A DNA stretch of 32,116 nucleotides, from the NCBI GenBank assembly GCA_022825745.1, contig JAJDWF010000069.1, forward strand, positions 1 through 32,116, in the 5' to 3' direction. This DNA is from Dehalococcoidia bacterium. Its GTDB lineage: Bacteria > Chloroflexota > Dehalococcoidia > Lucifugimonadales > UBA3495. Under the pieces are notes generated by a model that was given only the letters and a program-made list of their open reading frames with translations, was not told the DNA's origin and did not search any database. A program made the position numbers and the translations under genes. Of the stretch, positions 4,690-23,136 are shown in pieces (positions within the stretch are counted from its first letter, which is position 1; each line of letters begins with the position of its first letter).

Positions 4690-4764
4690 GGGGGCTTAGC
4701 TCAGTGGGAGAGCACCTGCTTTGCAAGCAGGGGGTCAGGGGTTCGAATCCCCTAGCCTCCACCA
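4690..4764 (+). tRNA. tRNA-Ala (anticodon UGC), CCA encoded
   Basis: It folds as a full cloverleaf: acceptor GGGGGCT with AGCCTCC, D stem GCTC/GAGC, anticodon stem CCTGC/GCAGG with loop TTTGCAA, and T arm AGGGG-TTCGAAT-CCCCT, then discriminator A and a genome-encoded CCA. The anticodon is TGC. The third acceptor pair is G-U (G3:U70), the alanine identity element. Its last 32 bases are repeated at 9174-9205, so this gene is the attachment site of the island that follows. It remained complete after integration. Confidence 0.97.
4733..4764 (+). repeat. Left attachment repeat (attL-like) inside tRNA-Ala
   Basis: These 32 bases, from the variable loop through the T arm and acceptor to CCA, are identical to 9174-9205. 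Including the six bases AGCAGG upstream and one mismatch (G4732 against A9173), the match is 39 nt. Confidence 0.85.
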
Positions 4765-18243: not shown

Positions 18244-18768
18244 TTACTGCTGGACGAAGCGGCGGTAAACCTCTTCCTCGGACAGGGCTTCCTGGTGGAA
18301 CCAGCTGTCGTCGATTACCTTGTACACGGCGTCCAGGCGTTCCAGGATTTCGTTGGTGAGGAGCAGCGCTTCCAGCGGCGATGCGGGCATTGCGCCGTCC
18401 CTTTCCAGCGTCATCACCGTCTCCGAGATAGCGCGGATCAGTTCCACCGTGCCCACGTGGGTGGCGTTGCTGCGGGCGGTGTGCAGGCTGTGGTAGATGG
18501 ACGACGCTTCGTGGTATCGCAACAGCATTTCCAGGGACTGGCCGGCGTCCTCGACGCGGATGCCCCGGATGGCGGCGGCGTTGCCCAGGGACTGTTGCAG
18601 CGTGAGCATATCGGCGCCGCTTTCCACCGCGATGCGGGCAAAGGTGTTGATCACCCGCGCGATGTTGTCGGCGCGTTCCAGCCAGCGGCCCAGCCAGATC
18701 AGGCTGTACACCCGGGAGTCGGTCAGCCACCGGTCCGAGCTAACGGATATTGACCTCGGTTCCACCAT
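18244..18768 (-). CDS. Short alpha-E domain protein (DUF403)
   Basis: A 174-residue helical protein with YSLIWLGRWLERADNIARVI, the N-terminal signature of alpha-E proteins, followed by ETVMTLERDGA. Alpha-E proteins usually have about 300 residues; this one has little more than half and ends at a clean stop with no downstream continuation in any frame that I see, so it is truncated or a minimal form. It is the last gene of an operon with a permuted ATP-grasp and a transglutaminase. Such genes are conserved partners in predicted peptide-synthesis or peptide-tagging systems (Iyer and Aravind). It starts three bases after the transglutaminase stop. Confidence 0.78.
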   Translation of the reverse strand: MVEPRSISVSSDRWLTDSRVYSLIWLGRWLERADNIARVINTFARIAVESGADMLTLQQSLGNAAAIRGIRVEDAGQSLEMLLRYHEASSIYHSLHTARSNATHVGTVELIRAISETVMTLERDGAMPASPLEALLLTNEILERLDAVYKVIDDSWFHQEALSEEEVYRRFVQQ

Positions 18769-18771
18769 AAT

Positions 18772-19677
18772 TCAATTGCCCTCCAGCAGCGCCAAAGCAT
18801 CGTCCACCGATACCGTCTCCCGGTCGAAAAAGACTTCCGCCGTGGTGAAGTTCAGCCAGCCCTCGCCCTTGGAAACGAACGACCCGGACACCGGCGGAAC
18901 CTCGGAGTAATCACGGCCCACCGCAAATTTCAAATAGTCCGTACCGTTCAGCTCCATAATCCCGCGCGTGGGGTCGGCCGGCAGCCAGCCGCGCTCGGGG
19001 TGGAGGAACTCCAGCCAGGCGTGGGTCTCACCGGGCTGACGGGTGAGCAGGCCGCTGACGTAGCGGGCCGGCACGCCATAAGCGCGCAGCATGGCCAATC
19101 CCAGGTGGGTCATGTCCTGGCAGACGCCGCTGCGGGATTGCAGCACGTCGGCGGCGGTGGTGTTCACCGACGTGTTGCCGCGCTCGTAGCGGATGTTGTC
19201 GTGGACCCAACGCACCACGCCGCTCACGGTTTCCAGCAGCGTGGTCGCCGAGCCGACGGCCTCCCGGGCCGCCGCCCGCACGGTTTCCGGGTCGGCCAGG
19301 AGCGAGGCGGTGAGGAACTCCTGCGCGTCCAGGCCGTAGGCGATGGACGCCAGCGGCGCGTCGTCAAGGACCGGCGCGTGGTCGTTCAGGCAGACGCGCC
19401 CCGTAGCCGCGATGATGAGTTCCCGGTGCGGCGCGGTGATCCGGATGCGGTTGACCACGTTGCCCAGGCGGTCGGGGTAGGTTATGCGGCGTCCTGCCGG
19501 TACGGTGGCCACTTCGGAACCTCCGCCGGCGGGAGTCTGATACCGGTCGTCGTAGGGAGACAGCCTGAGAAAATTGTCGTTCTGCACCACGACGTCCGAG
19601 TACTCGTATCTGGCGACGTAGGCGAAATGCACCGGGACCGGCTCCGGAGCTAGCGGACCACCCAGCTGGGTTTGCAT
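18772..19677 (-). CDS. Transglutaminase-like cysteine peptidase/amidase
   Basis: A 301-residue protein with a bacterial transglutaminase N-terminal beta domain (about 17-95) and a papain-like transglutaminase core. The catalytic triad is visible: Cys186 in SGVCQDMTHL, His219 in GETHAWLEF and Asp235 in PADPTRG. No signal peptide. The ATG at 19677 has AGGAGG close upstream and overlaps the ATP-grasp gene by 28 bases. In this gene set it is proposed to cleave or cross-link peptides formed by the ATP-grasp enzyme. The usual order is ATP-grasp, alpha-E, transglutaminase; here the last two are swapped. Confidence 0.88.
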   Translation of the reverse strand: MQTQLGGPLAPEPVPVHFAYVARYEYSDVVVQNDNFLRLSPYDDRYQTPAGGGSEVATVPAGRRITYPDRLGNVVNRIRITAPHRELIIAATGRVCLNDHAPVLDDAPLASIAYGLDAQEFLTASLLADPETVRAAAREAVGSATTLLETVSGVVRWVHDNIRYERGNTSVNTTAADVLQSRSGVCQDMTHLGLAMLRAYGVPARYVSGLLTRQPGETHAWLEFLHPERGWLPADPTRGIMELNGTDYLKFAVGRDYSEVPPVSGSFVSKGEGWLNFTTAEVFFDRETVSVDDALALLEGN

Positions 19678-21029
19678 GACCCTCCTGATGAGTTGTTGGT
19701 GACCCGGCTGTTGGCCTCGGACACGCGGGTCAGGCCGCCGGGGAAAACCGTGACCTCCCCGTGTCCGTTCTGCACCGCGAACACGCGCAGGTCAACGTAG
19801 CGCCCCTCAAACTCGCCACTCGACTCATCAAAAACAAGATGTTGGGAGAAGTCCAGCGTTTCCTGGGCGATGAACACCTGGGGCTGCTCGATGAGCTGCT
19901 GGGCCAGGCGGCTGCGGTAGCCCTTGTCCAGGTCGGGCAGGATGAATACCCCCAGCCCGCCGTAGCCCTGGCGGGTCTTCAGCACCAGGCTGTCCAGGTT
20001 TTGCAGTACGTACTCCCGGTTGGCCGGCGAACGCAGGTCGTAGCTGACCGCCTGGTCAAGTATGGCCGGCTCGCCCAGGTAGTGCTCGATCATGTCGGGC
20101 ACCCACAGGAACACGAGCTTGTCGTCGCAGGCGCCGGTTCCCATGGCGTTCACCAGGACAACTTTATGGTCCAGGTATGCTTCCGTCAATCCCGGCACGA
20201 ACAGCTCCAGGTCCTCGACGCGGCGGTAGATCAGGTCAACCTCAAAGTCGCCGCCCATGGCCCGCGCCCACACCCGGCCGTTGGCGCCAATGTACAGGTC
20301 GGAGCCTTCAACCAGCGTGATGCCGAACAGCTCCGACAGGTAGCGATGCTCGAAGAACGCCGAGCCGTACTTGCTGTCGGTCAGCAGCACGCACACCGGC
20401 GAATCCTTTTCGCACAAGGAGGCGAACATTTCCTGGTACGCGGCCCTGATGTCGTAGGGGATGATGTCGTAGCCGGCGGCCAGCTCCGGGATCGCGCCCA
20501 AGCCGATTTCGGCGCTTTTCATCTGGTAGGTGATGCCCGACGGTATCCGCAGGTTGTCCTCCAGGATGACGTAGCGCCCGTCGCCCATGTGGACCAGGTC
20601 GATGCCGTAGATGTGCACGAACACGTCCCGGGCCGGGCGGTAATCCAGCAGTTCCGGGTTGAAGTACTGGCAGGAATACATCACGTCGGGCGGCACCACC
20701 TCCTGCTCTCCGCAGTACAGGTCCAGCAGAAAACGGTTGATCGCTTTGAGCCGCTGGGCCACGCCGCGGGATATGACGTCCCACTCGCCCTCGGGAATCA
20801 GGCGTGGCATCCAGTCGGTGGGCACGGTGCGGAACTCCCGGGGGTCCAGCATGAACGTGAAGGCGTCCAGCGCGGCGCGGTGGTTGGCGTCGCCCCAGCG
20901 CCGTTGCAGTTCGGGAACGCCCAGCGAGTCGATGGCGTTCACCAGGTTCCGGTACACCGGCTTTACGGAACCGTCGGGGTTCAGGCACTCGTTGAGCGGG
21001 TGCCCGGCGGTTGATGTGTCAGTGAGCAT
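19650..21029 (-). CDS. Circularly permuted ATP-grasp protein (DUF404/DUF407)
   Basis: A 459-residue circularly permuted type-2 ATP-grasp. Recognisable blocks are FTFMLDPREFRTVPTDWMPR, VHIYGIDLVHMGDGRYVILE, EDNLRIPSGITYQM, and the late ATP-binding segment LVLKTRQGYGGLGVFI with RYVDLRVFAV. The family is predicted to form amide or peptide bonds with ATP, together with alpha-E and transglutaminase proteins. The ATG at 21029 is taken because family members start close to the NPDGSVKPVYR segment; the reading frame extends to 21164 without similarity. The divergent GlnR-like regulator and its box array lie immediately upstream, so this is probably the regulated operon. Confidence 0.88.
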   Translation of the reverse strand: MLTDTSTAGHPLNECLNPDGSVKPVYRNLVNAIDSLGVPELQRRWGDANHRAALDAFTFMLDPREFRTVPTDWMPRLIPEGEWDVISRGVAQRLKAINRFLLDLYCGEQEVVPPDVMYSCQYFNPELLDYRPARDVFVHIYGIDLVHMGDGRYVILEDNLRIPSGITYQMKSAEIGLGAIPELAAGYDIIPYDIRAAYQEMFASLCEKDSPVCVLLTDSKYGSAFFEHRYLSELFGITLVEGSDLYIGANGRVWARAMGGDFEVDLIYRRVEDLELFVPGLTEAYLDHKVVLVNAMGTGACDDKLVFLWVPDMIEHYLGEPAILDQAVSYDLRSPANREYVLQNLDSLVLKTRQGYGGLGVFILPDLDKGYRSRLAQQLIEQPQVFIAQETLDFSQHLVFDESSGEFEGRYVDLRVFAVQNGHGEVTVFPGGLTRVSEANSRVTNNSSGGSCKPSWVVR

Positions 21030-21114
21030 TGGCTTCCCATACTCGGACGGCGCATCGCAGCGCACGCCGGAAATTACAACGCATTGATCATCCCACAACC
21101 TTGTTGCGGCGGGG

Positions 21115-21171
21115 TTAACGATTTGTAACAATTTGTAACAAAAGCGTAACCGGTTCGTAATCACACGTTAA
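21115..21171. promoter_or_regulatory. Phased array of GTAAC boxes, GlnR/OmpR-type operator
   Basis: Six half-sites follow each other: TTAAC 21115-21119, GTAAC 21125-21129, GTAAC 21135-21139, GTAAC 21146-21150, GTAAT 21157-21161 and GTTAA 21167-21171. Start-to-start distances are 10, 10, 11, 11 and 10, placing them on one face of the helix. The actinobacterial GlnR operator consensus gTnAC-n6-GaAAC-n6 is close to this pattern. The array sits 25 bases before the GlnR-like gene and 85 bases before the ATP-grasp operon on the other strand. Confidence 0.7.
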
Positions 21172-21195
21172 TTCGCCGGCGGCAAGATGTAGGCA

Positions 21196-21900
21196 ATGCT
21201 TACCTACGGCAATCTTCAGTCAACGGCGACCGGTTCCAACCCGGCGCGGGTTCTTCTATTGGGAGAGGGCTGGGAGACCATGGGCGGCGTGCTGGCCGCG
21301 GTGGCCGACACCGGCGCCGTAGTCCTGATGGGGCCGGAGCCTGACTACCAGGCCAACATGGGCGCCGGCGCCGAATCGCCCAGCGTCCTGCTGATCTCAC
21401 CCGACGCAGACCTGGATACCCCCGACCGACGCGGCGACGAAACCGCGCCCCTGGTGCTGCGCTGCGTATGCGACGGCGAGATGGACGCGCCGGACCTCTA
21501 CGACGACTCCGACGACTTCGTAACCATCCCCTGCGCGCCGGCGGAGCTGATCAAGCGTATCCTGCGCCTGGCTCAACGCCACCGGGCGGCCAGTTCGTCG
21601 GCGGAATCAATCCACGTCGGCAGCATCGCCCTGAATCCCGCCACCTACCAGGTCACCGCCAACGGCCGGCCGGTGGATCTGGCGTGGCTGGAGTTTCAAC
21701 TGCTGCTGTTCCTGATGGAGAACGTGGGCAAGGTCTTCACCCGCGACCAGTTGCTCGCCAACGTGTGGGGCGTGGAGAACATCGGCGGCACCCGCACCGT
21801 GGACGTGCACATCCGCCGGCTGCGCTACAAGCTGGAGACGGGCAACGTCACCTACTTCCGCACGGTGAAGAACGTCGGCTACGGGATGATGGAGCCGTAG
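21196..21900 (+). CDS. Atypical (phosphorylation-independent) GlnR-like OmpR regulator
   Basis: A 234-residue orphan regulator. The C-terminal winged helix is intact (about 137-232): LAWLEFQLLLFLMENVGKVF, TRDQLLANVWG and GGTRTVDVHIRRLRYKL, then RTVKNVGYGM. This matches GlnR of Actinobacteria closely from memory. The receiver-like N-terminus has lost the phosphorylation apparatus: the acceptor Asp is Ser68 (SVLLISPDA) and the conserved Lys position reads Ile in TIPCAPAELIK. It has no kinase next to it. GlnR controls nitrogen metabolism genes; this copy, divergent from the ATP-grasp operon, may control it and itself. The ribosome binding site is weak (AGGC), so the start at 21196 is moderately sure. 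Confidence 0.84.
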   Translation: MLTYGNLQSTATGSNPARVLLLGEGWETMGGVLAAVADTGAVVLMGPEPDYQANMGAGAESPSVLLISPDADLDTPDRRGDETAPLVLRCVCDGEMDAPDLYDDSDDFVTIPCAPAELIKRILRLAQRHRAASSSAESIHVGSIALNPATYQVTANGRPVDLAWLEFQLLLFLMENVGKVFTRDQLLANVWGVENIGGTRTVDVHIRRLRYKLETGNVTYFRTVKNVGYGMMEP

Positions 21901-21906
21901 CCGTTA

Positions 21907-23136
21907 CTACCACTCCGCCGGCAGGCTGACTACGCCGCGGATGTTGAGCAGGTTGTGGTATTCCAGCTGGTCGGGGTCGCTGGCGAACTTGAAGGGCGGG
22001 AACTTGCGGGTGATGGCGCGGAACGCCTCCTGACCCTCCAGCCGCGCCAGGTTCGCGCCCAGGCAGTGGTGGATGCCGCCGCCGAAGGCCACGTGAGGGT
22101 TCGGGTAGCGGGTGATGTCCAGATCCTCGGGGTTCTCGAAGGCCATGGGGTCGCGGTTGGCGGCGTTGATGATGACCATCACCTTTTCGCCCTCGCGGAT
22201 CTTCTGGCCGGCCAGCTCGATGTCCTCCAGGGCGATGCGGGGCGCGCGCTTGACCGGCGAGTCGTAGCGCAGCAGTTCCTCGGTGGCGCGCACCAGCAGG
22301 CTGTCGTCCTCCTTGAGCATGTTCCACTGGTCGGGGTTGCGCATCAGGGCCATGGTGCCGTTGCCCACCAGGTTGATGGTGGTCTGGTGGCCGGCGATGA
22401 GCAGCAGCAGCGTGTTGCCCAGCACTTCCTCGCGGCTCAACTCCCCCTCGCGCTCGCCGATGGCCAGCACCGACAGCAGGTCGTCGGACGGCTCGCTGAC
22501 CCGCGTCTCCACCAGGGGGTTCACGTAGTCGTTCAGCGTGGTGATGGCCTCGTGGACGCGGGTGTGGCGGTCGGGCGATTCCTGGTCCAGCGACAGCAAC
22601 TGCCGGGACAGGGTGCGGATGAACTCCCGGTCCTCGGCCGGCATCCCCAGCCAGTTGGCGATGACCAGCACCGGCATGGCGTTGGCGAAGTCCCTGAGCA
22701 CGTCCATCTCGCCGCTCTCGGGGTCGAAGTCCTTGAGCAGGTCCTGGATGATGTTCTGCACCATGGCGCGGAAACGGTTGTCGATGTACTTGGGGTTGAA
22801 GACCGGGTGGACGGTGCGGCGCATCCGCAGGTGGTCGGGCCGGTCGCGGCGGATGAACCAGTTGTTCATGTAGTCCAGGTTGAACTTGTACTTGGGGAAG
22901 TCCTCTTCCGAAATCGGCGGGCTGGGCGGCTTGTCGTCGCGCAGGAACACCTCGGACGAGAAGTGCTCCTGGTGGCGCAGCGCCCACACCACCGCCTCGT
23001 AGGACGTTACGACCCAGGTGTCGAACTTGGCGTTCCAATAGACGGGGGCTTCCTCGCGCAGCATGGCGTAGTACGGATAAGGATTCCGCAGGTTCTCCGG
23101 AGAGAGCAGCTCGTCGTGAATCCGGTCTTTCAGCAT
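21907..23136 (-). CDS. Cytochrome P450
   Basis: A 409-residue soluble bacterial P450. The I-helix oxygen-binding motif is AGHQT at 248-252, with Gln where Asp/Glu is usual. ExxR is Glu287-Arg290 (EELLR) and the haem loop FGGGIHHCLG at 351-360 carries ligand Cys358. This type uses ferredoxin partners and hydroxylates small molecules; no redox partner gene is adjacent. The ATG at 23136 has GAGG seven bases upstream. The substrate is unknown. It converges on the GlnR-like gene six bases away. Confidence 0.93.
   Translation of the reverse strand: MLKDRIHDELLSPENLRNPYPYYAMLREEAPVYWNAKFDTWVVTSYEAVVWALRHQEHFSSEVFLRDDKPPSPPISEEDFPKYKFNLDYMNNWFIRRDRPDHLRMRRTVHPVFNPKYIDNRFRAMVQNIIQDLLKDFDPESGEMDVLRDFANAMPVLVIANWLGMPAEDREFIRTLSRQLLSLDQESPDRHTRVHEAITTLNDYVNPLVETRVSEPSDDLLSVLAIGEREGELSREEVLGNTLLLLIAGHQTTINLVGNGTMALMRNPDQWNMLKEDDSLLVRATEELLRYDSPVKRAPRIALEDIELAGQKIREGEKVMVIINAANRDPMAFENPEDLDITRYPNPHVAFGGGIHHCLGANLARLEGQEAFRAITRKFPPFKFASDPDQLEYHNLLNIRGVVSLPAEW

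Follow-up and report, generated by a model that had tools for sequence, protein, structure and literature searches.

Judged from its operator sequences and their distribution, the region between the regulator gene P0001 and a divergent ATP-grasp operon is probably a regulatory island that serves both sides within a GlnR-type nitrogen regulon of the class Dehalococcoidia. It lies in a window (the whole stretch of DNA analysed) of 32,116 nucleotides from a Dehalococcoidia bacterium. A class-wide GlnR-type regulon in Dehalococcoidia appears reasonably probable, with two GlnR-family proteins, one of them aspartate-less and itself a target, and with a recruited Anbu-type module and a conserved membrane protein of 27-49 residues. 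The following features were located in the window.

4690-4764, plus strand: tRNA-Ala (TGC), the sole match in the window in Rfam and tRNA scans
18244-18768, minus strand: P0004, alpha-E domain protein (PF04168)
18772-19677, minus strand: P0003, transglutaminase-like protein (PF01841, PF08379), overlapping the ATP-grasp gene
19650-21029, minus strand: P0002, circularly permuted ATP-grasp protein (PF14403, PF04174)
21087-21092, minus strand: -10-like hexamer GATGAT for the ATP-grasp operon, 10 bp past GCAAC
21103-21129, minus strand: putative operator ladder facing the ATP-grasp operon, GTTAC (21129-21125), TTAAC (21118-21114) and GCAAC (21107-21103), 11-bp steps
21125-21134, no strand assigned: 10-bp tandem duplication GTAACAATTT at the junction of both ladders, copies at 21125 and 21135, from sequence comparison of L009 with L020
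21135-21172, plus strand: putative operator ladder facing the regulator gene, GTAAC-aaaagc-GTAAC-cggttc-GTAAT-cacacg-TTAAT, four boxes, 11-bp steps
21183-21188, plus strand: -10-like hexamer CAAGAT, exactly 10 bp past box 4 of the plus ladder
21196-21900, plus strand: P0001, GlnR-like aspartate-less OmpR-family regulator, 234 aa

Operator ladders and promoter geometry

The sequence-only reading had described one array of six related boxes at steps of 10, 10, 11, 11 and 10 bp. All boxes are present (TTAAC at 21115, GTAAC at 21125, 21135 and 21146, GTAAT at 21157 and (G)TTAAT at 21167/21168), but the phasing as a single array does not hold: the boxes make up two ladders that diverge, and within each the step is strictly 11 bp. 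The six-box array was rejected because its first boxes lie in 11-bp register on the minus strand and are kept at ATP-grasp operons unlinked to the regulator. The 10-bp steps are apparent only, since the first two boxes belong to the opposite-strand ladder and a 10-bp tandem duplication is present, which is missing from the close relative G009 (ATP-grasp 98% identical). Box 1 of the minus ladder (about 21140-21136), which overlaps the plus ladder, is degraded, and no good first box was found for it in the window. A register of the minus ladder with GTGGG as fourth box scored slightly higher, but was discarded because no -10 hexamer follows it at the fixed spacing, whereas one follows the GCAAC register in all relatives.

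The arrangement matches the GlnR operator of Actinobacteria, gTnAc-n6-GaAAc-n6-GtnAC-n6-GAAAc in a-b-a-b order (PMC10704036), as had been proposed: four boxes a-b-a-b, of the types GTnAC and G(a/t)AAC, are separated by 6-bp spacers. It differs in box 2, which is mostly (G/T)T(A/T)AC here and not GAAAC.

The frequency of a simple two-box pattern in the window was not above chance, and significance was therefore assessed with a weight matrix of 54 positions, whose training set was limited to 16 promoters of amt and glutamine-synthetase genes from other genera. The 54-mer at 21135 (+) ranked first among 64,126 window positions with 31.8 bits. The minus-strand ladder, which overlaps this site, took ranks 2-4 with scores no higher than 15.4. 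The best unrelated site in the window scored 8.2, and when the window was replicated 30 times by a first-order Markov model, the scores peaked at 14.0.

An xAxxxT hexamer was found exactly 10 bp past box 4 in 34 of 36 non-redundant ladders, against at most five of 36 for any other offset; the spacing had played no part in choosing these ladders. Of the two ladders that deviate, L097 conforms once its reading is moved on by one box. For the ATP-grasp promoters with a ladder, the 10-bp spacing holds in 12 of the 13 listed, and the 13th (L114) has TATAAT in the set of 36. No promoter was found by a sigma-70 scan of the region, and none of the TTGACA type, as expected for an activator-dependent promoter. 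The fixed distance from box to -10 hexamer points, as far as sequence can tell, to an activator that sits over the -35 region.

According to the proposed mechanism, GlnR-family dimers would each occupy two 5-bp boxes set 11 bp apart, in a-b-a-b order along one face of the DNA. With the last box ending 10 bp before the -10 hexamer, the bound protein would be positioned where sigma would read the -35 element, and would recruit RNA polymerase. Of the back-to-back overlapping ladders, one would drive the GlnR-like gene, making P0001 itself a regulon target, and the other the ATP-grasp/transglutaminase/alpha-E operon. The regulator transcript, read from the ATG at 21196, is predicted to be almost leaderless; most P0001 orthologues have longer leaders.

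Conservation and further targets

Beyond the host, 12 genomes of the same genus contain a P0001 orthologue, which in two of them is present only as a broken or split copy; a few other genera have one too. The plus-strand four-box ladder was present in 20/20 of the orthologues with upstream DNA examined, down to about 41% protein identity. The ATP-grasp operon adjoins the P0001 gene divergently in only five genomes (G000, G002, G005, G006, G009). In G001, G003, G004, G008, G012, G015, G019 and G022 it is unlinked to the regulator, yet has its own ladder. A lack of conservation upstream of orthologous operons had been named as grounds for abandoning the idea of an operator; the boxes proved conserved before regulator orthologues and ATP-grasp operons, even where the two lie far apart. 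No clear ladder was seen at six of about 19 ATP-grasp orthologues (G025, G028, G032, G035, G054, G068), so the link of the ATP-grasp operon to the ladder is lineage-specific. No ladder accompanies the second ATP-grasp paralogue, which is 38% identical (e.g. at G000:C3).

The recent 10-bp tandem duplication in the window copy might suggest that the boxes are AT-rich repeats free of constraint, or that they serve replication or recombination. Given their position-specific conservation across genera, the fixed -10 spacing and their restriction to defined promoters, this explanation can practically be dismissed.

Targets were sought by a pattern search of 49 relatives, with gene context and Pfam checks, and a small membrane protein was added by a profile search. 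Among the targets returned by the pattern search were amtB, glutamine synthetase, the P0001 gene and the ATP-grasp operon; the further arrays that the sequence-only reading had proposed to look for near such nitrogen genes do exist. The host genome has the amtB ladder with the glutamine synthetase gene downstream within the same cluster. Operators at amtB, glutamine synthetase and nitrate assimilation genes are the mark of a GlnR regulon, and the first two are present here. A ladder is probably also present at a nitrate-reductase-like operon, an uncertain assignment from sequence: in G010 it precedes a molybdopterin oxidoreductase gene adjoining a nitrite-reductase-like gene, the site sequence is identical in G001, and there is no -10 hexamer at the usual spacing.

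When the amtB promoters of the relatives were scored, 26/29 had the ladder; the scores ranged from 33 to 59, whereas 1000 random sequences gave at most 2.4, and some of the sites overlap the training set of the matrix. An apparent miss in G014 (L251) arose from a contig end that had shifted the scored slice; the ladder is visible in L077. In a phylum-wide comparison, the ladder was found at 7/7 amtB promoters from outside the family but within the class or order, and at 0/22 from other Chloroflexota classes, a contrast that acts as an internal control of the method. Small single-contig genomes of the class also have ladders at amtB. The amtB ladder is far more widespread than P0001.

The amtB ladders of the class members G339, G323 and G354 (L311, L313, L315) exceed four boxes, with about six in G339 at 11-bp steps. 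At L069 (G000:C124), the interval from amtB to the glutamine synthetase gene contains two small ORFs similar to a HicB/HicA pair.

A ladder also precedes the gene of a conserved single-span membrane protein of 49 aa (MLAIAAGAAFVGLFALWVIVPRFILRR...APQAAD; site G000:C108:15830-15883, minus strand; loci L287, L267, L277, L270, L283, L284 and L263), for which no Pfam match was found. This ladder and that of amtB would drive their genes in the host in the same way. In other genera, a 27-aa version of the membrane protein is located between the ladder and amtB (L079, L080, L253).

Activators of the PhoB type also use 11-bp direct repeats, which in Pho box promoters occupy the -35 region and end just before the -10 hexamer, and several OmpR-family regulators are encoded in the class genomes. 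The ladder might then be served by PhoB or another regulator of this family in answer to phosphate or another stress. This is very improbable: the ladders differ from the Pho box in sequence, their boxes being the GTnAC/GAAAC of the GlnR consensus, and in their nitrogen target set of amtB, glutamine synthetase and related genes. Moreover, no phosphate gene with a ladder was seen, and the gene adjoining amtB encodes a GlnR-like protein and not a kinase-paired regulator. Control by nitrogen, read from the operator and target set of GlnR outside Actinobacteria, is well supported by these sequence comparisons. The earlier proposal of such control is strengthened by the ladders at amtB and glutamine synthetase in a Dehalococcoidia host, and must be narrowed for the ATP-grasp module by the six orthologues without a clear ladder.

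Two GlnR-like proteins and the candidate binder

P0001 has the DNA-binding domain of the OmpR/PhoB family (PF00486, E 1.2e-21), and its best solved relatives by sequence are the GlnR structures 8hih and 8hig, in line with the GlnR-like winged helix first ascribed to it. In a Foldseek search PhoP came first, 8hih 5th and 8hig 9th. The predicted model consists of a receiver-like N-terminal half of low confidence and a confident winged helix. The recognition region of GlnR type, GGTRTVDVH[IV]RRLR, is present in P0001, and the recognition sequence GGTRTVDVHIRRLR is common to P0001 and a more canonical GlnR-like protein and equals that of GlnR.

The receiver does lack both the acceptor Asp and the conserved Lys, as first noticed. 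Ser68 occupies the acceptor position, and the column holds S, A, G or C, never D, in 19/19 orthologues, where GlnR has Asp50 for dimerisation. None of the 19 members matched Pfam GlnR_1st (PF21695), even with E allowed up to 1. For these two reasons, P0001 was not filed as GlnR. A quick tree with long branches placed it beside actinobacterial GlnR at 83% SH-aLRT. By its sequence, P0001 is likelier a divergent aspartate-less GlnR paralogue, with its gene under the regulon.

Within the degenerate receiver, Cys90 is invariant in 19/19 orthologues and Cys113 is conserved in 18/19, hinting at redox or metal sensing. The orthologue in G009 (L020, G009:C6:12102-12802) is split into two frames near residue 171 by a frameshift, as a pseudogene or through a sequencing error.

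The more canonical GlnR-like protein (C33 protein, L131) is encoded at G000:C33:28613-29365. It keeps the acceptor Asp, lacks the Lys and matches GlnR_1st weakly (E 6e-4, 20.1 bits, under the curated cut-off of 27). Such proteins were found across the order, and in seven class genomes and G061 the gene immediately adjoins amtB on the same strand. Its own promoter has no ladder, and it is therefore not autoregulated by one.

The sequence-only reading had paired the ladder with the adjacent regulator. The ladder is indeed kept at the orthologues of that gene, but the canonical protein is the closer fit to GlnR and occurs in genomes without P0001. In the complete genome G003, which has no P0001, amtB and the ATP-grasp operon are still preceded by ladders. 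Because of this genome, and because the canonical protein is more GlnR-like and stands beside amtB, we infer that the C33 protein is the likelier general binder of the ladders. P0001 may bind the same boxes.

P0001 could instead be a dedicated, autoregulating binder that controls the ATP-grasp operon, leaving only amtB and glutamine synthetase to the canonical protein. Its divergent position beside the operon in the five genomes named above, the ladder always found at its own gene and the identity of its recognition-helix region with that of GlnR would agree with such a division. We consider it unlikely: G015, like G003, has no P0001 orthologue and keeps the ladder at the ATP-grasp operon, while G007, G011, G013 and G053 have the regulator and its ladder and no P0002 orthologue was found in them. 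The reach of the amtB ladder far beyond that of P0001 also speaks against P0001 as the dedicated binder.

Relation to known systems

In actinobacterial GlnR, a winged helix of the OmpR family is joined to a receiver that is degenerate and unphosphorylated; the targets of GlnR include amtB, glutamine synthetase and genes for nitrate and nitrite assimilation, and glnR is autoregulated in mycobacteria (PMC10704036, PMC3662644). The system described here shares the winged helix, the operator and the target set with the regulon of Streptomyces, Mycobacterium and Amycolatopsis. Unlike there, the host belongs to the Chloroflexota (Dehalococcoidia), a second, aspartate-less paralogue is present and itself a target, and an ATP-grasp/transglutaminase/alpha-E operon is among the targets. 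These three names are absent from the main text of the paper on the M. smegmatis GlnR regulon. A literature search of partial coverage returned no report of a GlnR regulon in Chloroflexota/Chloroflexi, Dehalococcoidia or Dehalococcoides. GlnR has been described as an actinobacterial regulator; if our reading is true, a class-wide nitrogen regulator can be named for the environmentally important, mostly uncultured Dehalococcoidia. The nitrogen-control network, apparently uncharted, is now testable, and the paralogue without the Asp is a natural experiment on the role of this receiver residue in GlnR.

ATP-grasp, alpha-E and transglutaminase proteins form an Anbu-associated peptide-synthesis module (Iyer et al. 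2009, cited in PMC5666114), and the same three families are united here in one operon (18244-21029). Compared with the module as outlined in that source, this operon has no Anbu peptidase gene, its next gene being a convergent cation-efflux gene, and it has predicted control by a GlnR-type ladder. Anbu reportedly rises in Pseudomonas putida under nitrogen limitation (Hervas 2008, cited in PMC5666114), an independent hint of a nitrogen link of the module. If true, this poorly understood module would be tied to nitrogen shortage, in agreement with the rise of Anbu in P. putida.

Convergent to the regulator, a cytochrome P450 gene was found at 21907-23136 (minus strand) of the window, which is 95-99% identical across the genus, far above the regulator.
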